DNA of 24,352 bases from a virus. The DNA lies in the IMG/VR virus record IMGVR_UViG_3300050821_010271, positions 1 to 24,352 of that record, one strand, 5' to 3'. A program made the translations under genes and the position numbers. Of the stretch, positions 5,221 through 24,352 are shown one piece after another. The notes beneath the pieces are model-generated. The model searched no databases. It was not told the origin of the DNA and was given only the letters and a program-made list of their open reading frames with translations. How positions within the stretch are numbered: the stretch's first letter is position 1; every line of letters begins with the position of its first letter.

Positions 5221-5327
5221 TGTCGCGCGAACAATTCGAGGCGTTGCTTCTTGAAATCAACATGCGAATCGCCGTGCTGCAAACACAGCGCGATCTCGAA
5301 GCCGCGAAGCAGAAGGCCAAGAAGTGA
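5220..5327 (+). CDS. 35-residue coiled-coil peptide
   Basis: ATG 5220 overlaps the previous stop (TAATG), and TGA 5325-5327 overlaps the next start (GTGA at 5324). The 35-residue peptide is one continuous amphipathic, charged helix: SREQFEALLLEINMRIAVLQ, then a basic end rich in Lys and Gln. Leu/Ile spacing suits a short coiled coil. Function unknown. Coupling on both sides supports it as a genuine gene. Confidence 0.5.
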   Translation: MSREQFEALLLEINMRIAVLQTQRDLEAAKQKAKK

Positions 5328-6040
5328 CAAGCGAGCAGCTTTTCGACGGGCTCCGGAGCCTCTATCCGGAAGCGCACGGCTGGGCCTTGCTGCCGCAGGT
5401 GCGCGACACGACCGGTATCTACGGGAGCCGCACAGCCGACGGCGTGGCGATGAATACATGGCCGAGCCGAGGCCTTGAAGTCCACGGCTTGGAGCTGAAA
5501 GTCACGCGAGGCGACTGGCTGCGCGAGCTGAAGAAGCCGGCCAAGGCGGACAGAATTTTCAAGTATTGCGACCGCTGGTCTGTCGTCATTCCGGAGCACG
5601 CTTCGCTTATCGTCCAGCCGGCGGAGCTGCCGAGCAATTGGGGCCTCATTGTCGTCGATGGGAAGGGCAAAGCCAGCCAGCAGCGGCCGGCGCCGAAGCT
5701 GAAGCCGGCCGCGCTCGACAAAGGCTTCCTCGCGGCCATTCTGCGGCGGCTGGCGGCCTGCGGCACGCCAGAGGCCAAGATCTCCGCCTCCTTTGCTCGT
5801 GGGCTTCTGGAGGGCCGCGAGGAGGGCAAGCGTGAGGCCTTGGCGCGGCTCGAGCGGCGCGGCCAGCGCGAAGAGGTCCGGTGGCAGCGGGAAAGCTTGG
5901 AGCGGCTCGAGGAGATTGCCGGCCGCTGTCTCAAGGGCATTCGGCGCGAGCTAGGCGCGCTGAAGGAGCTTCCGGACATCCTCGACGACGCGGAACTTCC
6001 GCCACCGGAAGCCAACCCGCCGGTGTCGGCCGGAACGTAG
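5324..6040 (+). CDS. MmcB-like PD-(D/E)XK nuclease-fold protein
   Basis: The 238-residue product has an N-terminal domain (about 1-105) of the type annotated as MmcB family DNA repair protein in alphaproteobacterial phages. It shows RTADGVAMNTWPSRGLEVHG (36-55), then LELK with E57 and K59, then WLRELKKPAKADRIFKYCDR and WSVVIP. D39, E57 and K59 fit the D-x(n)-E-x-K core of the PD-(D/E)XK nuclease fold. Known MmcB acts in DNA damage response in Caulobacter; here it may repair, process or degrade DNA. The C-terminal half (about 145-215) is a long Arg/Glu-rich helix, probably coiled coil. It starts with GTG at 5324, coupled to the previous gene. Confidence 0.75.
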   Translation: MTSEQLFDGLRSLYPEAHGWALLPQVRDTTGIYGSRTADGVAMNTWPSRGLEVHGLELKVTRGDWLRELKKPAKADRIFKYCDRWSVVIPEHASLIVQPAELPSNWGLIVVDGKGKASQQRPAPKLKPAALDKGFLAAILRRLAACGTPEAKISASFARGLLEGREEGKREALARLERRGQREEVRWQRESLERLEEIAGRCLKGIRRELGALKELPDILDDAELPPPEANPPVSAGT

Positions 6041-6043
6041 GCG

Positions 6044-6136
6044 ATGTGGCGGATGTCGGCGATGTTCTGGCGTATCTGGGCCTCGGGCTTTCTGCTCGGC
6101 CTCGTGGTGGGCCTGCTGCTCTCGGGCTTGCTCTAG
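6044..6136 (+). CDS. 30-residue single-span membrane peptide
   Basis: ATG 6044 begins 3 nt after the preceding stop and the frame ends at TAG 6134-6136, which overlaps the next GTG. The peptide opens MWRMSAMFWRIW and continues as one hydrophobic Gly/Leu/Val helix to its end. It has positive residues only near the N-terminus, implying the N-terminus stays inside. No partner or function is evident. It is too short for confident gene calling, but the position exactly fills the gap between two coupled genes. Confidence 0.5.
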   Translation: MWRMSAMFWRIWASGFLLGLVVGLLLSGLL

Positions 6137-6495
6137 TGACGCTCCTCGAGCTTCGGCCACAATTTCTTAAGCTGCATCCGACAGACTCTCGGTTCCGGCG
6201 CTATGTTGATAGCAGAGAAGACGCCGACGGCCTGATCTTTCTCTGCCCGAAATGCCTTCAACAGAACGGCATGTCAAGCAAAGGCGTGCACTCGGTGATC
6301 TGCTGGAAGCCCAGCGTTTCGCAGACGGTCAAGCCAACGCCCGGACGTTGGCATATTCTGGGCTCTGGCTTCGCGGACCTGACGCTGCAATCGGGCAGCT
6401 CCAGCGTGCTTATTACCGACGGCTGCCGCGCGCATTTTTATATCACGAACGGAAACATCATCCCGTGCGATCCATGGACCAGTGGCACGCCTTAA
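6136..6495 (+). CDS. DUF6527-like small phage protein
   Basis: I place the start at GTG 6136 (TAGTG overlap), although the frame is open further upstream inside another gene. The 119-residue product has a CPKC pair near residue 37, then HSVICWKPSV, then PTPGRWHILGSG, DLTLQSGSSSVLITDGC, and finally AHFYITNGNIIPCD. This order (Cys pair, CW, PGRW, CxxHFxIxNGxI ending) is like DUF6527 and related phage proteins that appear to form a small zinc-binding beta fold. The biochemical role is unknown. The end overlaps the next gene by 22 nt. Confidence 0.65.
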   Translation: MTLLELRPQFLKLHPTDSRFRRYVDSREDADGLIFLCPKCLQQNGMSSKGVHSVICWKPSVSQTVKPTPGRWHILGSGFADLTLQSGSSSVLITDGCRAHFYITNGNIIPCDPWTSGTP

Positions 6496-6719
6496 ACAAA
6501 GTCCATCGCATGATTCTAACCTTCGTGCTGGACAAGCAGGAGGCCACCATTCTCGGCGGCTTTTCCAAGACGCGGCCGGTCTACTTGCCGGCGCTCGGAG
6601 ACGCGGGCATGATGACGAGCGACGAAACCCTGAGCTATCTCGTCGACGGCGGCTGGCTGGAGCGCTGCGACGGCGACCGCTTTCGGCTCACGAAGAAAGG
6701 CAGACGTGCTCTTGAGTGA
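6474..6719 (+). CDS. small winged-helix-like hypothetical protein
   Basis: The frame is open well upstream, but I take ATG 6474 (MDQWHALNKVHRMILTFVLDK) because earlier codons lie inside the previous gene; ATG 6510 is the alternative. The 81-residue product ends SDETLSYLVDGGWLERCDGD followed by RFRLTKKGRRALE. That helix-plus-wing pattern with a closing LTKKGRRAL is common in MarR/PadR-like winged helices. The first half would supply the remaining helices. DNA binding is inferred from this pattern only. No strong ribosome site is visible. The stop overlaps the next gene by 14 nt. Confidence 0.5.
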   Translation: MDQWHALNKVHRMILTFVLDKQEATILGGFSKTRPVYLPALGDAGMMTSDETLSYLVDGGWLERCDGDRFRLTKKGRRALE

Positions 6720-7473
6720 CCCACAGCCGGCGGAGCTGGGCCGCGTAATCACGGCGAAGCTTCATAAGCGCCGAGGCACGAAGGTCCTGCACCTTGTCGT
6801 GGAAGCCAGCGGCCATGATGCCGCTATCGACGCGTTCGTGAAGGATCTGAAGCGCCACGGCCTGACGCTCTGGCTCGATCCCGAGCCGTCTCCGCCGGAA
6901 GCGCTGAGCGAGACGCTCGTGCTGCATGATCCAGTCAAGGTCTTTGAAATGACCGGCATGGAGGAAGGTGACGTGCTGGCTGCGCCCTGCCGCTGGTGTG
7001 GCTACAACGGCGAGGGCTATTGGCAGTCTGGCACGCACGGGAGGCTCTGCCCGTGGCGCTTCATCGGTGGCGAACGACAGCGGCGCTCCATTCTCGGCGA
7101 GCACCGGCTGGCTTCGCGCACGCCACTGACCGATGCGGTCAACGCCTTTCCGCCGAGACTGCTGACACCAGCGGAGGAGCAGACACTCGACGCCGGCTTC
7201 ATCAGCGGCGACGGCTCGGAGACGCCGGCCGGCCTGCTCTCGGTCGACGCATGGAAGGACGCAGGCTCGACCAACGTGGGCTTCGATCCTGCGGCCTTCC
7301 AGCGCTGCGCTGACTGCGCGCGGCCTCGGCTCTGCTCGGCCCACAAGCGCTGCATGTGCAAGCAGATCAACAAATTCGAGGAGCCAGACGAGAACGGCTT
7401 CTGCGTGGGCTGCCCAGACAATGCCGCCTGCCTTGCGCTCGGCTGCTCCGGCCCGAAGGAGGGCCACGCATGA
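6706..7473 (+). CDS. Cys-rich hypothetical phage protein, two metal-site regions
   Basis: GTG 6706 follows AAAGG at 6695-6699 by 6 nt. The 255-residue product has an N-terminal alpha/beta segment (KVLHLVVEASGHDAAIDAFV, then LKRHGLTLWLDPE), then a CRWCGYNGEGYW pair near 95 and CPW near 115. The C-terminus is strongly cysteine-rich (RCADCARPRLCSAHKRCMCKQ near 200, then FCVGCPDNAACLALGCSG). Two separate zinc sites are likely. I do not recognise the family. It ends at an ATGA overlap with the next gene. The C-terminal cluster resembles a treble-clef or small finger domain in cysteine density only. Confidence 0.65.
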   Translation: MLLSDPQPAELGRVITAKLHKRRGTKVLHLVVEASGHDAAIDAFVKDLKRHGLTLWLDPEPSPPEALSETLVLHDPVKVFEMTGMEEGDVLAAPCRWCGYNGEGYWQSGTHGRLCPWRFIGGERQRRSILGEHRLASRTPLTDAVNAFPPRLLTPAEEQTLDAGFISGDGSETPAGLLSVDAWKDAGSTNVGFDPAAFQRCADCARPRLCSAHKRCMCKQINKFEEPDENGFCVGCPDNAACLALGCSGPKEGHA

Positions 7474-7631
7474 CGGCCGCCGAGGTGCGGCGGCTGCTGG
7501 CTGGGCTGCGCTCCAGCTATCAGCCGAGAACGACGTGGCAGAGGCGGCGCGATGCGTGCCCAGCTATCGCAAGCCTTCGGCCTCTCACAGAGCGCGCTGC
7601 CAGAGCACAAAAGACACGGAGCCCACAGTGA
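7470..7631 (+). CDS. 53-residue basic hypothetical protein
   Basis: ATG 7470 overlaps the previous stop (ATGA) and follows GAAGGAGGG (7455-7463) at 6 nt, a strong ribosome site that decides this start over an upstream one in the same frame. The 53-residue product (MTAAEVRRLLAGLRSSYQPR, then TTWQRRRDACPAIASL) is basic and helical. Function unknown. It lies just before the HNH endonuclease gene. The next 75 bases (7632-7706) hold only a very short open frame and no clear signal. Confidence 0.5.
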   Translation: MTAAEVRRLLAGLRSSYQPRTTWQRRRDACPAIASLRPLTERAARAQKTRSPQ

Positions 7632-7706
7632 TGCCGGCTTCGCTTATCGGGTCTGCCTTCCAATTCCGGATTCCGCTGTGCTGGCCGTAGCCCGTTTGCG
7701 TTTTCG

Positions 7707-8051
7707 ATGCCTGCCTATCCGACGCGCGCTTGCCCTTGCCGGCCGGACTGCCCAAACCGCATCGCGCGAGGACAGCGCTTCTGCTCTGCGGGCTTGGCCG
7801 CCAAGGAAGCCAGCCGTCCGAACCCATGGCTGCGCCGGCTCTACCACACCGCCCGGTGGCTCAGACTCAAGCGCGACCACTTGCAGCGGGAGCCCGCCTG
7901 CTACGACTGCCGGAGCCTCGGCAAGATCATTCCGGCCACCGACGTCCACCACAAGGAGAAGCCTCAGACGGAGCTGCAATTCTTCGATGCCTCCACACTC
8001 GGCTCCCTCTGTCATAGCTGCCACTCCAAGCGCACAGCGCGCGGCGAATAG
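7707..8051 (+). CDS. HNH endonuclease
   Basis: This 114-residue protein matches the HNH nucleases found beside phage terminase genes. It has an N-terminal cysteine set (CPCRPDCPNRI, then FCSAG), then WLRLKRDHLQREPACYDC, the ATDVHHKEK motif, and the closing GSLCHSCHSK. CxxC pairs from YDC and CHSCH would hold structural zinc, and the His-His of DVHH would include the catalytic base. In HK97-type phages such a protein works with the terminase to cut concatemers during packaging. ATG 7707 is the first ATG after the preceding stop in this frame; no Shine-Dalgarno is visible. It lies 182 nt upstream of the terminase gene. Confidence 0.88.
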   Translation: MPAYPTRACPCRPDCPNRIARGQRFCSAGLAAKEASRPNPWLRRLYHTARWLRLKRDHLQREPACYDCRSLGKIIPATDVHHKEKPQTELQFFDASTLGSLCHSCHSKRTARGE

Positions 8052-8075
8052 CCCGAGCCCGACGAAACGATCAGC

Positions 8076-8103
8076 TCGACGCCATGGGGGCCGCTTTTAT
8101 ATA
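8076..8103 (+). promoter_or_regulatory. candidate promoter upstream of terminase
   Basis: TCGACG (8076-8081) and TATATA (8098-8103) are separated by 16 nt, each matching 4 of 6 consensus sigma-70 positions. The -10 overlaps a small hairpin, CCGCT (8091-8095) with AGCGG (8103-8107). The surrounding 8052-8233 gap is AT-richer than its flanks (notably 8158-8195) and contains no convincing gene, so a promoter or terminator here is reasonable but weakly supported. Confidence 0.25.
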
Positions 8104-8233
8104 GCGGGGGGGAGCTTCGCACGGCTAGAAATGAAGCCCGGCAAACCGCCCGGCTCCCTTTTTAAGAATAAAGCAATAACGAACTTAAGCGTAATAGGCC
8201 TGTTTTCGCAGGCTTTCGCAGACATGTCGCCAC

Positions 8234-10165
8234 ATGGACCACAACGGGACACCTGAAGCGAATCAAGACACCTTCGGCGACAGGCTTGACCGCTGGCGGC
8301 TGGAGCGACACGCGGAAACATCGCGCGACACGCCGGACACGCCAGCGGTTGCGCCCGAGCCGCCGAAGCGGAAGCGCGGGCGACCGCCGATCTCGGACGA
8401 CGAGAAGCGGCGGCGCGGGACCTTCCAAAAGAGCCGAGCGCGGGAGCCGCTGCCGGTCGAGCCCATGCGGCTGGACACCGATCCTGAGGCGAAACAGGAC
8501 TATCTCGCGGTCATGGTCGGCTACATGGACGGCGTGCGGAGCGGCCGCATTGTCGCAGGCAAATGGGTCAAGCTGGCGGTCGAGCGGCAATACGAAGACA
8601 TGGAGCGCGAAGGCTGGGAGTTCGCGTTCTCCCGGTTCTTCGCGTCGAAGGCGTGCGCCTTTATCGAGGCGCTGCCGCATGTGGAGGGCCGCTGGTCGAG
8701 CGCGCTGATTCACCTTGAGCCGTGGCAGGTCTTCGTCGTCTGCTGTCTTTTTGGCTGGCGGCACAAGAGCGACAGCTTCCGGCGGCGGTTCACGGTCTTC
8801 TATCTGGAGCTGGCGCGGAAGAACGCGAAGAGCACGCTCGCAGCCGGCATGGCGCTCTATCACCTGCTCCGCGAAGACGAGCCGGGCGCGCAGGTCATCT
8901 GCGGCGCCACGACTGGCTCGCAGGCACGTATTGTGTTAGATATCGCCAAGAAGATGTGCGACCGCTCGGCCTTCCTGCGGCAAGCGGGCGTGGTCACGCT
9001 CTCCAATTCGATCCGCTATCTGGACGGGCTCATGAAGAGCATCAACGCGAAGGCCTCGTCGCAAGACGGGTTGAACCCCAGCGTGATCCTGCTCGACGAA
9101 GCCCACGCGCAGGACTTTGAGCTGCACGACGTGCTGAAGAGCGCGCAGGGCGCACGGGACAATTCCCTTATGCTCTGCCCAACCACGGCTGGCTATGACC
9201 TGCTCTCGGTCGGCTATGCCATGCACCAGACGGTGCGGAAGATCCTTCAGCACGTGGTCTCGGCGGAGCATTACTTCGGGATCATCTACGCCATCGACTA
9301 CGAAGACGGCGACGACTGGCAGGACGAGACCGTGTGGCCGAAAGCGAACCCCATGCTCGGCGTGACGCCGAAGATGGACAAGTTCCGGCAGAACTTCGTC
9401 GACGCCCAGAACATGCCGGGCGGCGAGCGCGACTTCCTGATCAAGCAATTGAGCGTCTGGAGCGGCGCCGGCACAGGCTTCCTCTCTCTGGCGAAGTGGG
9501 ACAAGTGCGCGGACCCGAGCTGCCGGCTCGAGCGCTTCATCGGCAAGGAGTGCTGTATCGGCGGCGACCTGTCGCAGAGCGACGACATTACGGCTGTCGC
9601 TTATACCTTTAAGGAAGCCGATCTCTTCTGGAGCTGCGTGCAGCTCTATTTGCCGGAAGACGTGGTCGAAGAGCGCGCTCGGAAGGTGCCCGAATACGAA
9701 GTCTGGGTTCGGCTGGGCATTCTGAAGCTGACGCCCGGCGGCATGATCGATGTCAATTTGATTGAAAAGGATATCCGGGCGAACCTTCAGCGCTTCAAGG
9801 CGAAGGACATCGCCTTCGACCAATGGGGCTCGCTCCAGCTCGTCGGCTCCCTGTTCAATGACAGCTATCCGGCGCGGATCGAGACGAAGAACTCCGTCAA
9901 CTCCACTCCGCCGGCTCGGGAGCTGGAGAGCCGCGTGAAGCGGGCGCGCTTCCGGCACGACGGCAACGCGGCGCTGCGCTGGCATGCGGCCAACACCGTG
10001 GTCACGCGTAAGGTTGACGGGAGCCTCGTGCCGAAGAAAGACCACGCCGAGAGCCCGAACAAGATCGACGGCATCGAAGCCATCCTCCGAAGCCTCTCCG
10101 GCTGGCTGAAGGCCGATCCGAAGAAGGGCGGCGGCGGCCAATATCAAGCCATGGTCTTCGGCTAG
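8234..10165 (+). CDS. terL: terminase large subunit (TerL), HK97 type
   Basis: The packaging motor and nuclease that translocates DNA into the prohead; 643 residues. The ATPase domain has LEPWQ at 161-165, Walker A ARKNAKST (194-201), Walker B VILLDEAH (284-291) and coupling motif CPTTAGYD (315-322). The RNase-H-like nuclease has GGDLSQSDD (D445), AFDQW (D529) and KIDGIEA (D612) as the likely acidic metal ligands. An N-terminal extension of about 80 residues carries KRKRGRPP (45-52), an AT-hook-like basic motif not needed for the motor. No small-terminase gene is evident in the window. ATG 8234 is the first suitable start and lacks a clear Shine-Dalgarno. The HNH gene upstream and capsid genes downstream fit a packaging module. 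Confidence 0.97.
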   Translation: MDHNGTPEANQDTFGDRLDRWRLERHAETSRDTPDTPAVAPEPPKRKRGRPPISDDEKRRRGTFQKSRAREPLPVEPMRLDTDPEAKQDYLAVMVGYMDGVRSGRIVAGKWVKLAVERQYEDMEREGWEFAFSRFFASKACAFIEALPHVEGRWSSALIHLEPWQVFVVCCLFGWRHKSDSFRRRFTVFYLELARKNAKSTLAAGMALYHLLREDEPGAQVICGATTGSQARIVLDIAKKMCDRSAFLRQAGVVTLSNSIRYLDGLMKSINAKASSQDGLNPSVILLDEAHAQDFELHDVLKSAQGARDNSLMLCPTTAGYDLLSVGYAMHQTVRKILQHVVSAEHYFGIIYAIDYEDGDDWQDETVWPKANPMLGVTPKMDKFRQNFVDAQNMPGGERDFLIKQLSVWSGAGTGFLSLAKWDKCADPSCRLERFIGKECCIGGDLSQSDDITAVAYTFKEADLFWSCVQLYLPEDVVEERARKVPEYEVWVRLGILKLTPGGMIDVNLIEKDIRANLQRFKAKDIAFDQWGSLQLVGSLFNDSYPARIETKNSVNSTPPARELESRVKRARFRHDGNAALRWHAANTVVTRKVDGSLVPKKDHAESPNKIDGIEAILRSLSGWLKADPKKGGGGQYQAMVFG

Positions 10166-13441: not shown

Positions 13442-14923
13442 GTGAAGCTACTCGGCCTTGAGATCGGGAGGGCGGTTCCGGTCGTGCAGGCCGAGCCCGT
13501 CAACGAGCAGGCGCTCGTCTCCGCCCAGCGCGGCATCCCGATTCCGAACCCTCCGGCCTCGCTCTCGCCGGCCAGCTCCTCCGGCTGGTGGCCTTTCGGG
13601 TGGCTCCGCGAAGCCTTTCCCGGCGCGTGGCAGCGCGATATTAAAACGCCGGTTGTTGATGTCCTGACCTACGGCGCGGTCTTCTCCTGCGTCACGCTCA
13701 TTGCGTCCGATATCGCCAAGATGGGTCTCGGCATTGTCGAGCGCGTCAAAGACGGCACAACGATCCCGGCGATCAACTCCGCATGGTCGCCGGTGCTGAA
13801 GAAGCCGAACCATTATCAGATTCGCATCATGTTTGTGATGCAATGGCTGATCAGCAAGCTCACGTGGGGGAACGCCTATGTGCTGAAGGAGCGGGACAAC
13901 CGAGGCGTCGTGACTTCGCTCTATGTGCTGGACCCGAGCCGCGTCATTCCGCTCGTCGCCTCTAACGGCGATGTCTATTACGCGCTGACGGAAGACCTGC
14001 TCGCCGGCATCAAAGCCGGGATTCCGGCGATCCCGGCATCGGAGATCATTCACGATGTCATGTATCCCATTTATCATCCGCTGGTCGGGCTGAGCCCGAT
14101 TCATGCCTGCGGCTTGGCCGCGATTCAGGGCCTCCGCATTCAGGTCAACAGCGCGAAGTTCTTTGAGAATGGCGCCGCGCTCGGCGGCGTCCTGACCGCT
14201 CCCGGCGCCATTTCGAACGAGACCGCCGAGCGGCTGAAACAATTCTGGGAGAGCAAATACGTCGGCGCCTCGAATGTCGGCAAGGTGGCGGTCCTCGGCG
14301 ACGGTCTGAAGTTCGAGAAAATGACCATGTCGAGCACCGACGCGCAGTTGATCGAGCAGCTCAAGTGGACCTCGGAGAATGTCTGCACTTGCTACCATGT
14401 GCCTCCGCATAAGGTCGGCGTGCAGCCGCCTCCGACGCATACGAACATCGAAGCGCTCGACCAGCAATATTATTCGCAGTGCCTTCAGATCCTCGTCGAG
14501 TGTGTGGAGGGCCTGCTCGACGAAGGGCTGGCGATCAAGAATCCCTACTCCGTCGAGTTCTCGCTTGACGACCTGCTCCGCATGGACTCGGCCACGCTCA
14601 TGGACGTGCAAGCGAAGGGCGTCGGGGCCGGACTCGTTGCGCCGAACGAAGGCCGAAGGAAGCTGAACCTTCCGCCGGTGGTCGGCGGCCAAACGCCGTA
14701 TCTGCAACAGCAGAACTTCTCGCTCGCGGCGCTCGACGCACGCGACAAAGCTGGGCCGGCGCCAAGCACGGTGCCGGGAGCCGGCGGTGCGGCCGCTCCG
14801 GCGACCTCGGAGCCGAAGCCGCGCGTCTCCTCCAACGAGGAACCCGAAACGGAAATTCTGGAGGAGGCGATCTTCCTCGAAGCGCTGGAGCTGAAAATGA
14901 CGGAGTTCTTCGATGCAGCTTGA
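13442..14923 (+). CDS. portal protein, HK97 family
   Basis: The dodecameric ring at the capsid vertex through which DNA passes. I start at GTG 13442, with AGAAGGA at 13425-13431, not at the far-upstream in-frame ATG that overlaps the previous gene. The 493-residue product fits HK97-type portals (usually 400-500). It has [23 protein letters not shown] near the N-terminus, then [33 protein letters not shown], and LYVLDPSRV. Further on are [36 protein letters not shown], and [10 protein letters not shown], followed by [11 protein letters not shown]. The C-terminus is flexible and acidic. It sits after the capsid gene, a non-canonical order, and overlaps the collagen-like gene by 11 nt. Confidence 0.95.
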
Positions 14924-16223
14924 TGGCAAACAGCTCGCCGAGCTGGTCGGCATCGGCATTCAGAAAGCCGTGCGGCCGCTGCTCGAGCGGATCAAGCTCG
15001 TCGAAGCGCGGCCGCTGGCGCGCGACGGCAAGGACGGCCGCGACGGGCTCGAGGGCAAAGCCGGGCCTCAGGGCGATCCGGGACCGCAAGGCCTGAAGGG
15101 CGACAAGGGCGACCGAGGCGAAGCCGGGCCGGAAGGGCCGGTCGGGAAGCAGGGCACCATCGGCCTGCCGGGCGAGCCGGGTCCTATCGGCGCGCCGGGC
15201 GCGGACGGGCTGCCGGGGCCGAAGGGCGAAGCCGGCGAGCCGGGCACGGCCGGAGGGCCGGGTCCGCAAGGGCCAGCCGGGCCGCCCGGACCCATGGGGC
15301 CGCTCGGGCCTCCGGGACCGCAAGGCATGCCGGGCGATCCCGGTCCTATCGGCCCCGCCGGCCCAGAAGGGCCTGCCGGGCCGCAGGGCGCGCCGGGGGA
15401 GCCGGGCTTGCCCGGTGCGAAGGGCGAGCCGGGCGATCAGGGCCAGCCGGGGCCGCCGGGGCCTGCTGGGCCTCCCGGCAGCGCTGGGCCGCAAGGAGAG
15501 CCCGGTGTGCGCGGCGAGGCGGGCCTTCCCGGCGATCCGGGACCGCTCGGGCCGGCTGGGCCTCCGGGACCGGCTGGCGTGCAGCCGTCCGAGCTGCTCA
15601 GCATGTCGGAGCGGCTGGCGGCTATCGATGTCGAGCTGCCGAAGATGCTTCCGCTCTCCGCCTTGGAGGCGAAGCTCGCGGAGCTGCGCGGCGCCTTCGC
15701 GGCCGAGATCGCGGCGGCCACGAGCCTCGTCACCGAGTTCGCCACGAGCCTGACGAAGCGCATGGAGGCGGTCGAAGCCTTCAAGCCGGAGCCCGGTCGC
15801 GATGGCCGCGACGGCCGCGACGGTGCGCCGGGCGAGAAAGGCCTCGACGGCGCCGCTGGCAAAGACGGCCGCGACGGCTTCGGCTTCGACGACCTCTCGG
15901 TCGTCAAGAGCGGCGACCGGCTCTTCCTGCTGGTCTTTCAGCGCGGCGACGAGCGGAAGGAATTTCCGATCAGCTTTGACGGGCTCGTGCTCGACAAAGG
16001 CGTGTGGCGAGAGGAGCGCAGCTTCGAGCGCGGCGACGGCATCTCCTACGGCGGCTGCTTCTGGATCGCGCAGAAGGACAGCCAAGGCGCGCGGCCGGGC
16101 ACGTCCGACGACTGGCGGCTGGCGGTCAAGCAGGGCCGCGACGGGAAGCAGGGCCTCACCGGGCCGAAGGGCAAGGACGGGGCGCCGGGCAAAGACGGCA
16201 AAGACATGAACCTTCGGCGGTAG
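14913..16223 (+). CDS. collagen-like virion fibre protein
   Basis: A 436-residue protein. Residues 1-38 form a helical head ([20 protein letters not shown]). Residues 39-224 are 62 uninterrupted Gly-X-Y triplets, many GPP/GPQ/GEP/GDP. A helical, probably trimeric coiled-coil section follows (about 226-300), then about 10 triplets rich in GRD, then a beta domain (about 320-405) with [19 protein letters not shown] and [20 protein letters not shown]. This domain resembles carbohydrate-binding or fibre-tip modules in phage proteins. A last 8-triplet stretch ends KDMNLRR. Collagen-like phage proteins form trimers on heads or tail fibres. It overlaps the portal gene and sits immediately before the glycan cassette, so it is a candidate glycosylation substrate (inference). 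Confidence 0.88.
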
Positions 16224-16224
16224 C

Positions 16225-16914
16225 GTGGTCAACAACATGTGGGAGCTGCCGCAGGAGCGCCGCGCGCTCCTCGAGACGCGGGAAGCTGCGCGGCGCAACG
16301 AGATCCTCAAGAACAGCCACAAGGTGCCTCCGCTCTGTCCGGGCGGCACGGTGGTCTGCCTCGGCTGCGGGCCGAGCCTCGTCAAAGCCGACGTCGACTG
16401 GGCGCACGCCAAAGGCGCCACGATCATTGCGGTCAACGACGCCTACACGCTGGCGCCATTCGCGGCCGCGCTGATGGCCTCGGACGGCGCGTGGTGGATT
16501 CACAAGAAGCCGGCATTTGCCGGGCTCCGCTATTCGCTCGATCCCTCGGCCAGCCGCGTCAAGGGCGTGATCGTCCTGAAGAACACCGGCACTGATGGCA
16601 TCGAGCAGGACCCGGCCGGCCTCCGCACGGGCCGCAATTCCGGCGCGGCTGCTGTGAACCTCGCGGTCCATTTCGGCGCGAAGCGGATCATCTTGATCGG
16701 CTACGACATGGGCCACCAGAGCTCGAAGCGGTCCCACTTCTTCGGCAACCATAAGTTCCCGCTGCGCGACGGCTCGCCGTTTCCGGTTTTCATCGAAGCG
16801 TTCAAGCGCCAAGTCAACCCGCTGAAGCAGCTTGGCATCGAAGTAGTAAACTGCTCCCGGCAGACCGCGCTGACGTGCTTTCCACGGCTCCCGCTCGAGG
16901 ACGCGCTTCCGTGA
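16225..16914 (+). CDS. DUF115/MptE-like glycan enzyme, copy 1
   Basis: This 229-residue Rossmann-like protein has GGTVVCLGCGPSL (GPSL at 49-52) as the nucleotide-binding turn, AVNDAYTLAPFAAALMASD (N71, D72), GLRTGRNSGAAAVNLA (132-147), and the AKRIILIGYDM strand (152-162). This pattern is shared by DUF115 (MptE-like, Maf-type flagellin glycosylation) proteins and GT42 sialyltransferase-like proteins in phage genomes. A sugar transfer role is likely; the sugar is unknown. The start is GTG 16225 or possibly ATG 16237; neither has a good Shine-Dalgarno. It follows the collagen gene by one base and its stop overlaps the GT-D gene by GTGA. Confidence 0.75.
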   Translation: MVNNMWELPQERRALLETREAARRNEILKNSHKVPPLCPGGTVVCLGCGPSLVKADVDWAHAKGATIIAVNDAYTLAPFAAALMASDGAWWIHKKPAFAGLRYSLDPSASRVKGVIVLKNTGTDGIEQDPAGLRTGRNSGAAAVNLAVHFGAKRIILIGYDMGHQSSKRSHFFGNHKFPLRDGSPFPVFIEAFKRQVNPLKQLGIEVVNCSRQTALTCFPRLPLEDALP

Positions 16915-17627
16915 AGCGCTGGCCGGCTGTGCTCTCCGAGGAGGAGACGCTCGACGAGGTGCTCGCCGGGCGTAGCATCGCGCGCTACGGCGACGGAGAG
17001 TTCAAGCTCTGTCAAGGCGCCAGCATCAAGAGCCAGCAGTTCGAGCCGAAGCTCGGGCGGCGGCTCCGGGCGATCCTGCTGGAGCGGAGCAAGGCCGACT
17101 GCATCGTGGCGATCCCGAACCTGAACGTGCCGACTAAACCGTTCTGGGACGGCTTCAAGACGCCGAAGACCACGGCGCTCTTCGACATGAAGCGCGTCTA
17201 CGGCTCGGCCTTCATCTCTCGGCCTGACAGCGCGCCATGGATTCACCAGCCGCGCTACTGGCGGAAGGTAGAGAGCCTCTGGAAAGGGCAGGAGGTGACG
17301 CTCGTGCGCGGCTCTGGTAAGAGCCTCACGGCGGGCGTGCTGGCCTCGGCCAAGGCGGTCAACGAGATCATGTGCGCGCGGCAGCATGCGTGGGCCGAGC
17401 GCGAGGAGCTGCTGGAAAAGATCGGCCGGCCTCGGCGCGTGCTGCTCTGCTGTGGGCCGACGGCCACGGTGCTGGCCGCTGACTTAGCGGAGCGAGGCGT
17501 TCATGCCATCGACCTCGGACACATCGGAATGTGGTTTAAGCGACTCGACAAGAGCGCACTCGACGCGCTCGAAATCGGGCGGGCGGAAGAGCGGGCCGAG
17601 GATGCAGCCGACCATACCGTTGGATGA
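16911..17627 (+). CDS. GT-D type glycosyltransferase
   Basis: I start at GTG 16911 (GTGA overlap). The 238-residue product fits the GT-D fold glycosyltransferases (formerly DUF1792). It has the motif ARYGDGEFKLC (D28-G-E30), then VAIPNL, VYGSAFISRPDSAPWI (97-111), LVRGSGKSLTAG, and LLCCGPTATVLAADLAERGV (178-197), and IDLGHIGMW near the end. In GT-D enzymes the Asp-x-Glu motif binds metal and the sugar nucleotide, and family members add sugars to Ser-rich adhesin proteins. That is an appealing parallel with a structural protein next door. The donor sugar is unknown. Confidence 0.8.
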   Translation: MKRWPAVLSEEETLDEVLAGRSIARYGDGEFKLCQGASIKSQQFEPKLGRRLRAILLERSKADCIVAIPNLNVPTKPFWDGFKTPKTTALFDMKRVYGSAFISRPDSAPWIHQPRYWRKVESLWKGQEVTLVRGSGKSLTAGVLASAKAVNEIMCARQHAWAEREELLEKIGRPRRVLLCCGPTATVLAADLAERGVHAIDLGHIGMWFKRLDKSALDALEIGRAEERAEDAADHTVG

Positions 17628-17790
17628 AGTCGCGCTCCGCCTGCTCTGCGCCATGGTCTCGAAAGGCGAGCCGCATAGCCTAACCACGGTGCGTGAAGCT
17701 TTCGCGCTGGCGCTCAATTTCCACGACCACGCAGCGCTGATCAGGAGTCGCAAAGGCGAACCGCTCGCCTTCGACGATAACGGGGTATGA
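17602..17790 (+). CDS. small hypothetical protein in glycan cassette
   Basis: I start at ATG 17602 because upstream codons in this frame lie inside the GT-D gene. The 62-residue product (MQPTIPLDEVALRLLCAMVS, then FALALNFHDHAALI) is helical with no motif I recognise. It overlaps the GT-D gene by 26 nt and ends on the ATGA of the next gene. A helper subunit of an enzyme is possible but unsupported. Confidence 0.5.
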   Translation: MQPTIPLDEVALRLLCAMVSKGEPHSLTTVREAFALALNFHDHAALIRSRKGEPLAFDDNGV

Positions 17791-18416
17791 TGTCGCGGCG
17801 ACAATTCAAAGCCAACGCTGTCGTGCCGCGCTGGCGCGTGCCGCTGGAGTGGGCCGGGCAGCGCTGCTTTATTATTGCCGGCGGCCGAAGCGTAGCCGAT
17901 CAAGCGCGCCTGATCCCGAAGCTTCGAGGCCGCATTATCGCCATCAAGCAAAGCGTGGCGCTCCGCCCGACGGCCGATGTCATGCTGCTGGCTTCGCGGG
18001 AGGACTGGTTCGTCTGCCGCGACTACTTCCGGCTCTATCGCGGGCCGCGCGTCATTTGCCGGTCGAATTATCCCAACATGCCGAAGGGCACGCTCTATCT
18101 GCGGCGCAGCAAGGAGGCGCTGTCTCGGGACCCGGAGCACCTTGCCGGCCTCGACGCCGGATCGAGCGCGATCAACCTCGCGGCGCTCTTCGGCGCGAAG
18201 GAGATTGTCGTGCTCGGCATGGACATGGTGCAGGGCCGGTGGGTGAGGAGCCACCCGACCATGCCGGTGATTCCGGACTGGCACTTCAAGCTGCACCTCC
18301 AAGGCCTGCAACGCATGGCGCCGGAGCTGAAGCGCGACGGCATCCGCGTTATAAACTGCTCGCCGATTTCCGCCGTCGAATGCTTTGAGCGGCGGGAGCT
18401 GAGGGAGTTTCTATGA
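17787..18416 (+). CDS. DUF115/MptE-like glycan enzyme, copy 2
   Basis: A 209-residue relative of the 16225 product with the same layout. It has RCFIIAGGRSVADQA as the nucleotide-binding turn (GGRS in place of GPSL), VMLLASREDWF, then LDAGSSAINLAALFGAKEIV, and VLGMDMVQGRW, then GIRVINCSP near the end. The GSSAINLAALFGAKEI stretch aligns directly with GRNSGAAAVNLAVHFGAKRI of copy 1. A second sugar-transferring or nucleotide-sugar enzyme is likely. The degenerate GPSL turn leaves open a loss or change of activity. It starts on ATGA coupled to the previous gene. Confidence 0.7.
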   Translation: MMSRRQFKANAVVPRWRVPLEWAGQRCFIIAGGRSVADQARLIPKLRGRIIAIKQSVALRPTADVMLLASREDWFVCRDYFRLYRGPRVICRSNYPNMPKGTLYLRRSKEALSRDPEHLAGLDAGSSAINLAALFGAKEIVVLGMDMVQGRWVRSHPTMPVIPDWHFKLHLQGLQRMAPELKRDGIRVINCSPISAVECFERRELREFL

Positions 18417-18613
18417 CGGCGATGGACGAGCTTTCGGTCACTCTCGAATTTCGGCCGCGTCCGCTCTGGCGGCCGCTCGGCCTTCGAGCCTTCGCGCGTT
18501 GGTATCGGGAAGCGCGCCGCTATCACGGCCGCGTCGTCTCGGCTTTCTGCGCCTGCCGGGTGGCGCGCTGCGAAGTCTTCATTAACGGCAAGAAGCGAAC
18601 CCATGACGCGTGA
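18413..18613 (+). CDS. 66-residue basic hypothetical protein in cassette
   Basis: It starts on the ATGA at 18413 and overlaps the methyltransferase gene by 11 nt. The product is strongly basic and aromatic (LEFRPRPLWRPLGLRAFARW, YREARRYHGRV, then FCACRVARC). CAC and a nearby Cys are present. No recognised domain. It could be a membrane-surface or nucleic-acid-associated small protein, but this is guesswork. Confidence 0.5.
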   Translation: MTAMDELSVTLEFRPRPLWRPLGLRAFARWYREARRYHGRVVSAFCACRVARCEVFINGKKRTHDA

Positions 18614-19193
18614 GCAGCTCATCTCCGAGGCCTATCTCGAAGAGCAGCGCATTCTACACGCCTCTCCGCGCGGCTACGGCGGCCGAGGCGACAAGTGGGC
18701 GTCGTTCGTTCTGGAGCTGCTTAAGGCGCACTCGCTTGCCTCGATGCTCGACTACGGCTGCGGTCAAGGCTCGCTCTGCCGGGCGCTGCTGGACGGCTTC
18801 GGCGACTTCCGCATCGTGGAAGGCTTCGACGGGATGGTGGAGCTGCGCGAATACGATCCCGCCATTCCGGGCAAGGACGAGCCGCCCAGCGCGCCGGCCG
18901 ACCTCGTGGTCTGCACCGACGTGCTGGAGCACATCGAGCATGACAAGATCCACGCCGTGCTCTGCCACCTGCGCGAGCTGACCGGCCGCGCGCTCTTCGT
19001 AGTCGTCTCTCTGGTGCCAACCGCAAAGACGCTCCGGAATGGTAAGCAGGCGCACATCCTGCTGCGCTCCGAGGAATGGTGGCGCTATCAATTCGAGGAG
19101 CATGACTTCGCGCTGGGCAAGACCGTCAAAGGCCGAGACCCGAAGAAAGACCACAAGCAGTTCGCGGCAGTGTGGAAGCCATGCGGAAGATAG
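18603..19193 (+). CDS. class I SAM-dependent methyltransferase
   Basis: A 196-residue protein with the Rossmann methyltransferase motifs: motif I LDYGCGQGSLC (D50 to G56), an acidic end of strand two (EGFDG, YDP), and VVCTDVLEHIEHDKIHAVL (103-120), the DxLEHI motif typical of small-molecule or sugar methyltransferases. A VVSLVPTAKTL strand follows. It lies between glycosyltransferases, so methylation of sugars or sugar nucleotides is the likely role. A C-terminal KDHKQFAAVWK strand completes the fold. ATG 18603 is within the previous gene's end (11-nt overlap). Confidence 0.85.
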   Translation: MTREQLISEAYLEEQRILHASPRGYGGRGDKWASFVLELLKAHSLASMLDYGCGQGSLCRALLDGFGDFRIVEGFDGMVELREYDPAIPGKDEPPSAPADLVVCTDVLEHIEHDKIHAVLCHLRELTGRALFVVVSLVPTAKTLRNGKQAHILLRSEEWWRYQFEEHDFALGKTVKGRDPKKDHKQFAAVWKPCGR

Positions 19194-19786
19194 AGGGGCT
19201 CTTCTGGCCGGACGATGTTGCTGATAAATGGCAGCATTCGCTACGGCATATGGCGTCCCTCGACTGGACGCTGAAGCATTGCGGCGGCCGGCGCACGGCG
19301 GTGCAGGCCGGCGGCAATATCGGCATCTGGCCTCGGCGCATGGCGGAGGCCGGCTTCCGGCGCGTCCTGACCTTTGAGCCGGACGTCTTTAGCCGAAAGT
19401 GTTTGGAGCGCAATGTGTCGGCGCGCGTCGAGGTATATCCCTACGCGCTGGGCGCTGCCGCTGGTGAATGCGATATCCACCACAGAAGCCTCGGCTCCCA
19501 TCGCGTTGTGGAAGGCTCGGGCGTCAACATGGTTCCGCTCGATTCTTTTCGGCTGGAGGATGTCGATCTGCTCCAGCTTGACATCGAGGGCTACGAATGG
19601 CACGCGCTCGCCGGCGCCGTCGATACCCTGACGCGCTGCCGGCCCATGGTGCACATCGAGCTGCGCGGCTTCACGGAGAAATACGGCCATTCCGACGAGG
19701 AGGTGCGTGAGCTGCTCCGCCGGCACGGCTACAAAGAGCTAAAGGCGCTTCCCGGCAACGACTTCGTCTTTAAGGTGCTGTCATGA
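19181..19786 (+). CDS. FkbM-family methyltransferase
   Basis: I prefer ATG 19181 (MRKIEGLFWPDD), preceded by GGAAG, over the in-frame GTG at 19172. The 201-residue product carries FkbM motifs: VQAGGNIGIWP (motif I, 41-51), LTFEPDVFSRKCLERN (63-78), VPLDSF, LLQLDIEGYEW (130-140) and VHIELRGFTEKYGH (157-170). FkbM enzymes O-methylate sugars or secondary metabolites, and are frequent in capsule, O-antigen and phage glycan loci. The start lies within the end of the previous gene. The stop overlaps the next gene by ATGA. Confidence 0.88.
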   Translation: MRKIEGLFWPDDVADKWQHSLRHMASLDWTLKHCGGRRTAVQAGGNIGIWPRRMAEAGFRRVLTFEPDVFSRKCLERNVSARVEVYPYALGAAAGECDIHHRSLGSHRVVEGSGVNMVPLDSFRLEDVDLLQLDIEGYEWHALAGAVDTLTRCRPMVHIELRGFTEKYGHSDEEVRELLRRHGYKELKALPGNDFVFKVLS

Positions 19787-20343
19787 TTCCAGTCGAAAAC
19801 TACGAGGCGGTCTGCCGCGCGGTGCCCTATCGCGTCAAGGGCGTGTTCTATTCGGAGCTGTATCTCTTCCTGCAAGCCTGCTCCGACAACGACGTCAACC
19901 TCGTTATCGAGAGCGGGGTCAAGCACGGCATGTCGACGCGGTTGCTGGCGTCCGCATGGCCGGGAGAGATCATCAGCATCGACCGCGACGACGGCATTAT
20001 TCCGGAGGTTGTCGAAGGCGTGCAATTCATGGAGGGCGATTCGCGGGAGCTGATACCGATGATCCTGCGCGCCTACAAAGGCCGGCGCGCGGCGGTCCTA
20101 ATCGACGGACCGAAGGGAGAGACCGCGCTCCAGCTCAAGGCCGCGATCTGGCAAAGCGACATTGTGCGCGTCGTGGCGATACACGACCTTCCGCTTGAGG
20201 CCGTGCCGAGCTGCCACCGGCACAGCCATGAGCCGAGCTTCCGGACGAGCGTTGGGCGCCGGCTCGACGCCTTCATCGCGCACGACTATGCCCGGAAGTA
20301 TCCAAACGGAACCGGCTTGGCAATCTGGGAGAAGAAGCAGTGA
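19783..20343 (+). CDS. SAM methyltransferase-fold protein
   Basis: A 186-residue protein with an alpha/beta methyltransferase-like order: VNLVIESGVKHGMSTRLLA as a degenerate motif I, GEIISIDRDDG for strand two, FMEGDSRELIPMIL, and AAVLIDGPKGETAL, the IDGxKG-like strand four common in Methyltransf_24 enzymes. Then DIVRVVAIHDLP and a His-rich SCHRHSHEPSF segment. The glycine-rich loop is ESGVKHG rather than ExGxGxG, so cofactor binding is probable but less certain than in its neighbours. It starts on ATGA and overlaps the next gene by GTGA. Confidence 0.65.
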   Translation: MIPVENYEAVCRAVPYRVKGVFYSELYLFLQACSDNDVNLVIESGVKHGMSTRLLASAWPGEIISIDRDDGIIPEVVEGVQFMEGDSRELIPMILRAYKGRRAAVLIDGPKGETALQLKAAIWQSDIVRVVAIHDLPLEAVPSCHRHSHEPSFRTSVGRRLDAFIAHDYARKYPNGTGLAIWEKKQ

Positions 20344-21083
20344 GCTACGACAAGCCGCGCATGATGGATGCGCTGACGCTGGTGATGCCTTACTACGACA
20401 ACCCGACCATGCTCTCCGAGCAGCAGCGGCAGTGGATGAAATATCCAGAGGAGATGCGCCAGAAGCTTCACGTTGTCATCGTTGACGACTGCTCTCCGCG
20501 CTGGCCGGCTCGTGAGCGCGTGCTCGAGCCGGAGATACTCGGGCTGGCCTCGTTCAGCCTGTATCGGACGCTCGTCGATGTCCGGTGGAACTGGCTCTTC
20601 TGCCGAAACCTCGGCGTCTCGGTGGCGACCACGAACTGGGTCTTGATGACGGATATCGACCATGTCATGCCGGGCAAAACCTTCGCGGCTATCCTCGAGA
20701 CGAAGCTCTCGCCCGGTATGGCCTATCGGCTCTCCAGAGTCGACGCTCCGCTCGGCACGGCTTACAAGCCGCATCCGAACACATGGATGATGACGCGGGC
20801 GCTCTTCGACAAGATCGGCGGCTACGACGAGCGCTTCTCCGGCTTCTATGGGACTGACGGAGAATTTCGGCGCCGTGTGCAGGACCGCGCCGACGGGATC
20901 ATCATGCTGCCGCATACCATGGTCCGCTATCCGCGCGAAGTGATCGCCGACGCCTCGACCACGACCTATGGCCGGAAGGAGCCGCAGGACCGGTCAAATG
21001 TCAAGCGTATCGTCTTGGAACGCGCTGAGATTCCAAAGTGGGAAACGAAGCGACTAACCTTTCCCTATGAGCGGCTGGTATGA
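20340..21083 (+). CDS. GT2-family glycosyltransferase
   Basis: A 247-residue GT-A fold enzyme. LTLVMPYYDNPTML (12-25) opens the fold, VVIVDDCSP (45-53) carries the UDP-binding acidic pair, NWLFCRNLGVSVATTNWVLM (84-103) is the conserved RNxG helix, and DID (105-107) is the DxD metal site. GGYDERFSGFYGTDGEFRRRV (160-180) holds the acceptor-side acidic catalytic motif. These are classic GT2 features. It is cytoplasmic, with no membrane span. It starts with GTG overlapping the previous stop (GTGA). Confidence 0.88.
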   Translation: MSYDKPRMMDALTLVMPYYDNPTMLSEQQRQWMKYPEEMRQKLHVVIVDDCSPRWPARERVLEPEILGLASFSLYRTLVDVRWNWLFCRNLGVSVATTNWVLMTDIDHVMPGKTFAAILETKLSPGMAYRLSRVDAPLGTAYKPHPNTWMMTRALFDKIGGYDERFSGFYGTDGEFRRRVQDRADGIIMLPHTMVRYPREVIADASTTTYGRKEPQDRSNVKRIVLERAEIPKWETKRLTFPYERLV

Positions 21084-21796
21084 GTAGCGCGCCTCTGACG
21101 ATTGTCTGCTGGAAATGGAGCTCGCCGGGCTATCGCTCAGAGTTTGGTCCAGAGGCCGTCAATGTCCTGCGGCGCATGGTGAGCCGGCATTACGTGCGGC
21201 CGCACCGGTTCTGCTGCGTCACGAACGAGCCGAAGGGCATCGATCCGCAGGTTGAAATCATTCCAGACCGCGAAGACTTTAAGGACATCCCGAGCCCGCA
21301 CGGCGGCAGGAACCCGAGCTGCTACCGCCGGCTGCGCCTCTTCGCTCCTGATGCCGGAGAGATCTTCGGGCCGCGCTTCGTGAGCCTCGATCTGGACTGC
21401 GTGATCGTGCGCGACATGATTCCGGTCTGGGACCGTCCGGAGCCGTTCGTGATCTGGGGCGACACGAACCCGAAGACGCTCTACAACGGAAGCATGATGC
21501 TCCTTAAGGCTGGCGCGCGAACAGTGGTGTGGAACAATTTCAACCCGAAACACTCGCCTCGGCTGGCGCAGTCGTCGGGCAATTTCGGGAGCGATCAGGC
21601 GTGGATCTCCTTCTGCCTTGGCCGGGGCGAGAAAAAGTGGAGCCGGATTGATGGGGTTTATTCCTACAGGAATGAGATAATGCGCCGGGGCTCGATGCTG
21701 CCTCCCGATGCGCGTATTGTGATGTTCCACGGGCTCACTGATCCATGGTCGCCGGAAGCGCAACGGCTCTCATGGGTTCGGCAGCATTGGATCTGA
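21080..21796 (+). CDS. GT-A fold glycosyltransferase (GT8/GT32-like)
   Basis: A 238-residue protein with LTIVCWKWSSPGY at the start, FCCVTNEPKGI, then YRRLRLFAPDAG, VSLDLDCVIVRDM (DLD at 104-106 as the metal site), VIWGDTN, LYNGSMMLLKAGAR (134-147) and NFGSDQAWISF (168-178). DxD followed by NGSxxLL and GSDQAWI is the order seen in GT8/GT32-like enzymes that use a nucleotide sugar. It is the last gene of the cassette: the stop is 10 nt before the connector gene. It starts on ATGA. Confidence 0.8.
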   Translation: MSSAPLTIVCWKWSSPGYRSEFGPEAVNVLRRMVSRHYVRPHRFCCVTNEPKGIDPQVEIIPDREDFKDIPSPHGGRNPSCYRRLRLFAPDAGEIFGPRFVSLDLDCVIVRDMIPVWDRPEPFVIWGDTNPKTLYNGSMMLLKAGARTVVWNNFNPKHSPRLAQSSGNFGSDQAWISFCLGRGEKKWSRIDGVYSYRNEIMRRGSMLPPDARIVMFHGLTDPWSPEAQRLSWVRQHWI

Positions 21797-21806
21797 GGAG
21801 GCGCCG

Positions 21807-22166
21807 GTGCTTATCACGACTCAGCAAGCTATCGACCACCTGCGGCTGCCGCTGGCTATCGGCAGTCCGGGCCAGCTTCTTGACAGCTCTCAGGCGCGCG
21901 ATCTCAACATGAAGATCGCGCAGGCCTCCGCCTTGGTCCTTGACTATATTAAAGTCAGCTTGACCTCTCCGCCCGACTGGGACGCCGAGGCGAACAACGT
22001 GCCGCTCGTCATTCAATGCGCCACGCTGGTGCTGCTGGCCGAGCTATGGCGCTTCCGAGGCGATGACCCGGCCTCTGTCAACGACGCGCCACAATATCCG
22101 GACGGGCAGCTCTCTCCGCAGGTAACGAATTATCTGCGGCGCTGGCGCGATCCGGCCATGGCATAG
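21807..22166 (+). CDS. head-tail connector (gp6-like)
   Basis: GTG 21807 has GAGGAGG at 21795-21801, a strong ribosome site after the cassette. The 119-residue product fits the HK97 gp6/connector family (usually about 100-120). It has LITTQQAIDHLRLP, a helix NMKIAQASALVLDYIK, then VPLVIQCATLVLLAELWRFR, with a C-terminal QLSPQVTNYLRRWRDPAMA. In HK97 gp6 forms a ring below the portal. Confidence 0.88.
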   Translation: MLITTQQAIDHLRLPLAIGSPGQLLDSSQARDLNMKIAQASALVLDYIKVSLTSPPDWDAEANNVPLVIQCATLVLLAELWRFRGDDPASVNDAPQYPDGQLSPQVTNYLRRWRDPAMA

Positions 22167-24112: not shown

Positions 24113-24352
24113 GCAATAACCGATTCGTTCTTGACGGCTGGGAGGCGCTCCGGGCGGAACTACGCAACCTTCCGCCGTCTATGGTTGACGAGGCCTCTGG
24201 CATCGTGGCCGACGCAGCGCGCAACTCGGAGAGCGACATTCGGGCCGCCTACGAAGCGCACATCAAAGCCGGAGAGCTGAGCGCCGATCTCACGACCGTG
24301 ATTCAGAAGGGCGGCCGCGCCTTCGCCGGAGCTATCGTGCGGAACACCTCGA
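24109..24352 (+). CDS. HK97 gp10-like tail component, 3' truncated by window
   Basis: ATG 24109 overlaps the previous stop (ATGA). The 81 codons present read SNNRFVLDGWEALRAELRNL, then SMVDEASGIVADAARNSESD, IRAAYEAHIKAGEL, and AFAGAIVRNTS. The WEALRAELRNLP start followed by a long helix and later GAxVRN strands matches HK97 gp10-type proteins, thought to act at the tail terminus or head-tail joint. In HK97 it precedes the DUF3168 and tube genes; here it follows them. The rest of the gene lies outside the window. Confidence 0.7.
   Translation, partial: MSNNRFVLDGWEALRAELRNLPPSMVDEASGIVADAARNSESDIRAAYEAHIKAGELSADLTTVIQKGGRAFAGAIVRNTS

Follow-up and report, generated by a model that had tools for sequence, protein, structure and literature searches.

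The virus record IMGVR_UViG_3300050821_010271, analyzed from position 1 to position 24,352 (hereafter, the window), carries within its head operon an overlapping block of genes that encode four kinds of glycosyltransferase along with two or three methyltransferases. Judged from gene order and homology, these genes are a conserved module whose linkage to virion structural genes holds across phages. We favor, with moderate confidence, the interpretation that the block specifies a soluble, probably late-expressed pathway by which a virion protein, most probably one of the head proteins, is glycosylated and methylated.

Results

Ten overlapping frames lie between virion genes

The block extends from position 16225 to position 21796 of the window and is made up of 10 frames, designated A to J, all on the forward (+) strand. 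Neighboring frames overlap at all nine internal junctions, by exactly 4 bases at six of them. On its upstream side, a single base separates the start of A from the stop codon of a gene for a collagen-like protein (14913 to 16223, +; PF01391), and on its downstream side, J is followed after 10 bases by a connector gene (21807 to 22166, +) whose profile matches PAJU2 gp08, a protein annotated as head-tail adaptor Ad1. Both flanking genes are outside the cassette. The sequence-only reading had described 10 consecutive, overlapping same-strand genes placed between a collagen-like gene and a head-tail connector, and both parts of that description hold. All 10 frames have a coding-like distribution of GC over codon positions (GC3 of 0.73 to 0.86), and the arrangement is not due to chance, because the identical order was found again in many other phages. 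On these sequence criteria, eight of the frames are backed by families or homologues; of the other two, C is weakly conserved and E is unsupported. By hydropathy, all cassette products look soluble and none spans a membrane, and none of them resembled a flippase or a membrane-bound glucosyltransferase.

Five frames encode predicted glycosyltransferases. Frame A (16225 to 16914, +) encodes a putative glycosyltransferase of the DUF115/Maf fold, which matches PF01973 (DUF115/MptE-like) at 34.5 bits, against a curated cut-off of 34.6, and phrog_4603 with an E value of 1.1e-39. Its AlphaFold model (pLDDT 92.6) aligned best to the Maf flagellin glycosyltransferase of Magnetospirillum (5mu5), with residues 32 to 229 of A resembling Maf residues 263 to 511 only (Z 16.4, rmsd 2.6, 173 aligned); the next matches, i.e., archaeal HPPK (Z 11.6), SteA (11.5), and the sialyltransferase CstII (10.7), were well below Maf. 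This alignment was obtained by realigning the list returned by Foldseek, which on its own yielded no significant PDB hit for A. The phage genes differ from Maf in their setting, being placed among head genes and not flagellin genes. Homologues of A include D3 orf7 and P1 pmgO, and a scan with protein A alone gave no matches. As A shares its fold with a pyrophosphokinase, its glycosyltransferase activity is presumptive. Frame D (17787 to 18416, +) encodes a second protein of the DUF115 family, with a weak PF01973 match (21 bits), a phrog_4603 match (E value of 1e-16), 33% identity to A across 160 residues, and a counterpart that is 75% identical in locus L003.

Frame B (16911 to 17627, +) encodes a GT-D fold glycosyltransferase that scored 102.9 bits against PF08759 (cut-off of 27). 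It is homologous to the solved GT-D enzyme GalT1 of Streptococcus (4pfx; E value of 1.3e-24), a bacterial enzyme of adhesin glycosylation, and its DxE motif (D28-G-E30) lines up with that of GalT1 and is invariant in four homologues. Frame I (20340 to 21083, +) encodes a GT2-family glycosyltransferase, exceeding the PF10111 (Glyco_tranf_2_2) cut-off at 30.4 versus 27.3 bits. The product of frame J (21080 to 21796, +), a GT8-like GT-A glycosyltransferase, matched the glycosyltransferase family phrog_1962 and no Pfam family, GT8 included, at an E value of 0.1. Its model (pLDDT 94.9) was closest in fold to LgtC (E value of 5e-9) and glycogenin, and residues D104, D106, D172, and Q173, which form a DxD motif and a DQ pair as in LgtC, were invariant in 53 homologues. 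Thus, the two DUF115-like proteins, the GT-D enzyme, the GT2 enzyme, and the DxD-bearing GT-A protein that had been proposed from the letters alone were all recovered, including by a fold search suggested at that stage, which was run on A and J and returned Maf-like and LgtC/glycogenin-like folds. These assignments support the conclusion that the cassette enzymes are of a type that glycosylates proteins or oligosaccharides.

Of the three methyltransferase-fold proteins that had also been proposed, F and G stood and H matched weakly. Frame F (18603 to 19193, +) encodes a class I methyltransferase (PF13489, Methyltransf_23; 48.2 bits against a cut-off of 27), and F-type frames are fused to or overlap the GT-D frame in three other loci (L138, L168, and L079). 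Frame G (19172 to 19786, +) encodes an FkbM-type methyltransferase (PF05050; 60.8 bits against a cut-off of 22.7). The product of frame H (19783 to 20343, +) is a weak methyltransferase candidate, with 15.3 bits to PF13578 (Methyltransf_24; cut-off of 26.3) and homologues in L003, L095, and L119. As for the small frames, C is open from 17503 to 17790 (+) and probably starts at 17602, giving 62 amino acids (aa), because the longer frame would overlap B by 125 bases and about 43 aa alone are conserved in L003 (42% identity over 43 aa). The GC3 of C is coding-like, and it had no family match in the profile search. Frame E (18413 to 18613, +; 66 aa) is doubtful as a gene: it matched no family, and neither of the two closest relatives, L003 and L004, has a homologue of it.

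The cassette recurs beside at least four non-homologous head-gene types

Scans with J and B gathered more than 100 distinct viral loci. In a profile survey, the order DUF115, GT-D, DUF115, methyltransferases, GT2, and J (GT8-like) recurred in dozens of environmental phages, in which the cassette adjoins at least four head-gene types that are not homologous to one another. The first, exemplified by the window, comprises a fused protease-capsid gene, portal, collagen-like gene, cassette, and connector. In the second, HK97-type terminase, portal, protease, and capsid genes precede the cassette and connector; Tetraselmis viridis virus S20 is of this type, as are about 20 environmental loci. The third is a Bradyrhizobium prophage-like locus with an S49 protease and a lambda-like decoration protein D, and the fourth has SU10-type portals (five records), with the cassette of locus L128 sitting between portal and major head protein. 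In T. viridis virus S20/SI1, an almost full cassette occupies the slot between the head genes and head closure; unlike the window, this virus has HK97-type head genes, no collagen-like gene, and no detected homologue of H. Linkage to virion genes was likewise seen when 80 window-like portals were sampled irrespective of the cassette; of these, 44 loci had at least 4 kb downstream, and 16 of the 44 carried DUF115.

A quick tree of I and J from 58 loci (17 of 55 branches open) placed the first and second head types in largely separate clades, pointing to infrequent exchange and to long retention within each type. J by itself directly precedes the portal gene in some 25 related phages. The content of the slot also varies: L154 carries a CMP-sugar synthetase gene immediately before GT-D, and L250 has genes for an epimerase and for GT8-like and GT9-like proteins in the slot. 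Tail genes, not head genes, precede a DUF115 and a methyltransferase gene of Caulobacter phage CcrBL9, so the neighboring structural gene differs among distant relatives, and in Cronobacter phage JK004 there is no annotated structural neighbor.

Partial likenesses exist in phages P1, D3, and PAJU2

Reduced likenesses of the cassette are found in better-known phages. P1 has a DUF115 pair, pmgO and pmgP, and a weak J homologue, pmgQ, in its late region; none of the three was identified as a GT-D, GT2, or methyltransferase gene. All three genes were non-essential in a CRISPRi survey, in agreement with deletions (PMC10695390). In D3, the DUF115 homologue orf7 is situated between the genes for the major head protein and for the head-tail adaptor, with a methyltransferase gene, orf13, a few genes beyond it; PAJU2 carries gp10 and gp12 between its head-closure and tail-terminator genes. 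Both phages thus resemble the window in having DUF115 and Methyltransf_23 genes among head, connector, and tail genes, and differ from it in having no GT-D, GT2, or detected J. A collagen-C domain was not found in D3 and is present without collagen repeats in PAJU2.

Discussion

Virion glycosylation has been documented in few phages, chiefly those of actinobacteria. According to Freeman et al. (2023, Cell Host Microbe), as cited in PMC12619734 and PMC13313380, the capsid and tail-tube subunits of mycobacteriophages bear glycans, in a system that likewise involves phage-encoded glycosyltransferases, and a glycosyltransferase and a methyltransferase of Rhodococcus phages have already been interpreted in terms of virion glycosylation (PMC13313380). 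Virion glycosylation itself is therefore known, and it is the enzyme set that differs: the window combines predicted Maf-like, GT-D, GT2, and GT8-like enzymes with two to three methyltransferases. No mycobacteriophage was among the tblastn matches listed for phage-record relatives of A, B, I, and J. This enzyme set and its spread across unrelated head types are undescribed in the open-licence literature that we searched, in which no description of the cassette was found (DUF115, FkbM, sialyltransferase, and capsid glycosylation).

The idea that the phage places a methylated glycan on its virion had been raised in the sequence-only reading; the enzyme types and the linkage to virion genes support it, and the collagen-like protein as its particular target is not supported (see below). 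The cassette would be made late, alongside the capsid proteins. A cytoplasmic Maf-like enzyme (A or D) would start a glycan on Ser or Thr of a virion protein, possibly from a CMP-activated sugar donor; the GT-D, GT2, and GT8-like enzymes would lengthen it; and F, G, and H would O-methylate it. The acceptor would most likely be a head protein, e.g., the abundant capsid subunit, since the head module is the constant neighbor of the full cassettes surveyed. The resulting glycan coat may alter the particle surface, and with it stability, adsorption, or recognition, and would be dispensable for assembly. Several observations are consistent with such a scheme. Soluble products agree with the needs of cytoplasmic protein glycosylation; the CMP-sugar synthetase of L154 fits a CMP-sugar donor for a Maf/CstII-like fold; the variable sugar genes in the slot (L154 and L250) fit glycan variation from phage to phage; and P1 pmgO, pmgP, and pmgQ are non-essential, as a decoration should be. 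We count against virion glycosylation that the Maf fold also occurs in a pyrophosphokinase and other proteins, that neither capsid nor tail tube has an obvious Ser/Thr-rich tail, and the gene placements in CcrBL9 and JK004.

Alternatively, the cassette might act during infection on flagellin or a surface glycan of the host and so block superinfection, to which we assign a low probability. Phage glycosyltransferases are able to modify host surface glycans, as is established for temperate serotype-converting phages, and the Maf and GT-D relatives of the cassette enzymes act on surface proteins of bacteria. However, the cassette lies within the virion operon. A role at the host surface is further disfavored because the products look soluble, with none that spans the membrane or is flippase- or membrane-bound-glucosyltransferase-like. 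Moreover, superinfection immunity matters most in prophages, whereas relatives of J were present in only 3 of the 84,980 host genomes scanned (Bradyrhizobium, Sphingobium, and Bosea only), so that, within the sensitivity of the scan, carriers seem mostly not to be integrated.

Glycosylation directed specifically at the adjoining collagen-like protein, in the manner of the glycosylated collagen-like proteins of spores and giant viruses, is in our assessment quite improbable. The collagen-like gene does directly adjoin the cassette in the window and in the relatives nearest to it, and collagen repeats tended to be slightly longer in the DUF115 carriers of the portal sample (Mann-Whitney P of 0.037, or 0.067 after dereplication). 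Yet kin-independent pairs, which are few, revealed no association between cassette and collagen, and a Pfam Collagen match was absent from 15 of 24 cassette records, one of which, that of T. viridis virus S20 (38,987 bases), is a whole record, while several others are fragments. Conversely, relatives with 38 to 73 collagen triplets carry no cassette (L180, L183, L187, and L235). Ser and Thr make up about 2.5% of the X/Y positions in the 80 triplets of the window, which is not above the level in cassette-free relatives, and the repeats do not have the Thr-rich Gly-X-Y O-glycan sites of BclA-like glycosylated collagen proteins. We therefore rejected collagen-specific glycosylation, which record survey, portal sampling, kin-independent pairs, and repeat composition all failed to support. 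In the survey of gene neighborhoods, a check that had been suggested for collagen-like, DUF115, and GT-D genes, DUF115 and GT-D recurred together, either with a collagen-like gene or without one. The collagen-like protein itself is probably portal-associated. Its gene comes right after the portal gene, and its C-terminal domain matches the end of the portal family phrog_2271, which suggests a portal-associated component; this link is based on the phrog_2271 profile and gene order, and no gene fusing portal and collagen-C domain occurred in the fetched loci.

Finally, glycosylation of hypermodified phage DNA by the cassette is unlikely, with a very slight probability in our estimate: viruses do encode DNA-hypermodifying glycosyltransferases (Pyle et al. 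2024, as cited in PMC12619734) and one gene of the window bears a weak likeness to dCMP deaminase, but the thymidylate-synthase/hydroxymethylase family was absent from 24 cassette records in a search with a positive control, no TET/JBP match appeared (a weak point, as that control was silent), and the block belongs to the virion operon.

Returning to glycosylation of a head protein, we tentatively advance a broader proposal, which we regard as possible rather than probable. Siphovirus-like and SU10-type phages, few of them cultured, may share an exchangeable head-glycosylation cassette for a methylated glycan that is primed with a CMP-sugar and carried by a head protein; P1 pmgO/pmgP/pmgQ and D3 orf7/orf13 would be reduced forms of this cassette. 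If this is true, a second, unrelated enzyme set would glycosylate virions in phages of other hosts, the cassette would have been exchanged between head types, and the unexplained P1 and D3 genes would gain a testable role.

Collagen-like genes and portal neighborhood

In the nearest relative (L003), the cassette follows two long collagen-like genes arranged in succession (5251-6618 and 6622-8388), which contain 66 and 60 triplet runs, respectively. The window's own collagen-like protein (14913-16223, + strand) has a C-terminal domain that resembles the final stretch of phrog_2271, a portal family; this domain occurs without collagen repeats directly 3' of the portal gene in PAJU2 and EBPR siphovirus 3. 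It may represent a component bound to the portal. Rhizobium phage RHph_X2_26 (L331) encodes a related portal and a protein with this C-terminal domain without carrying the cassette; an SGNH hydrolase gene (L331:3033-4247) lies between its capsid and portal genes. Tetraselmis viridis virus S20 (NC_020840.1), which has an algal host on record yet tailed-phage genes throughout, carries the cassette. The GT8-like gene J was found without the other cassette genes in about 25 phages (L037-L083; e.g., L044, L047, and L058), and in these the portal gene is located directly 3' of it. Outside the cassette, the window contains a weakly matched dCMP-deaminase-like gene (2042-2512; phrog_174, E 1.1e-5; PF00383 below cut-off).

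Clues to the sugar donor and pathway

At locus L250, an 88-triplet collagen-like gene precedes a DUF115 gene flanked by NAD-dependent epimerase, GT8-like, and GT9-like genes (5883-6845, 7599-8381, and 9283-10119, respectively). In the cassette of L154, the GT-D gene is positioned directly 3' of the end of a CMP-sugar synthetase family gene (9243-9995; PF02348, 65.8 bits), a clue to a CMP-activated donor. GT-D and methyltransferase domains share a single frame at three loci (L138:10001-11200, L168:6725-7909, and L079:5754-6914), and this apparent fusion supports a shared pathway.
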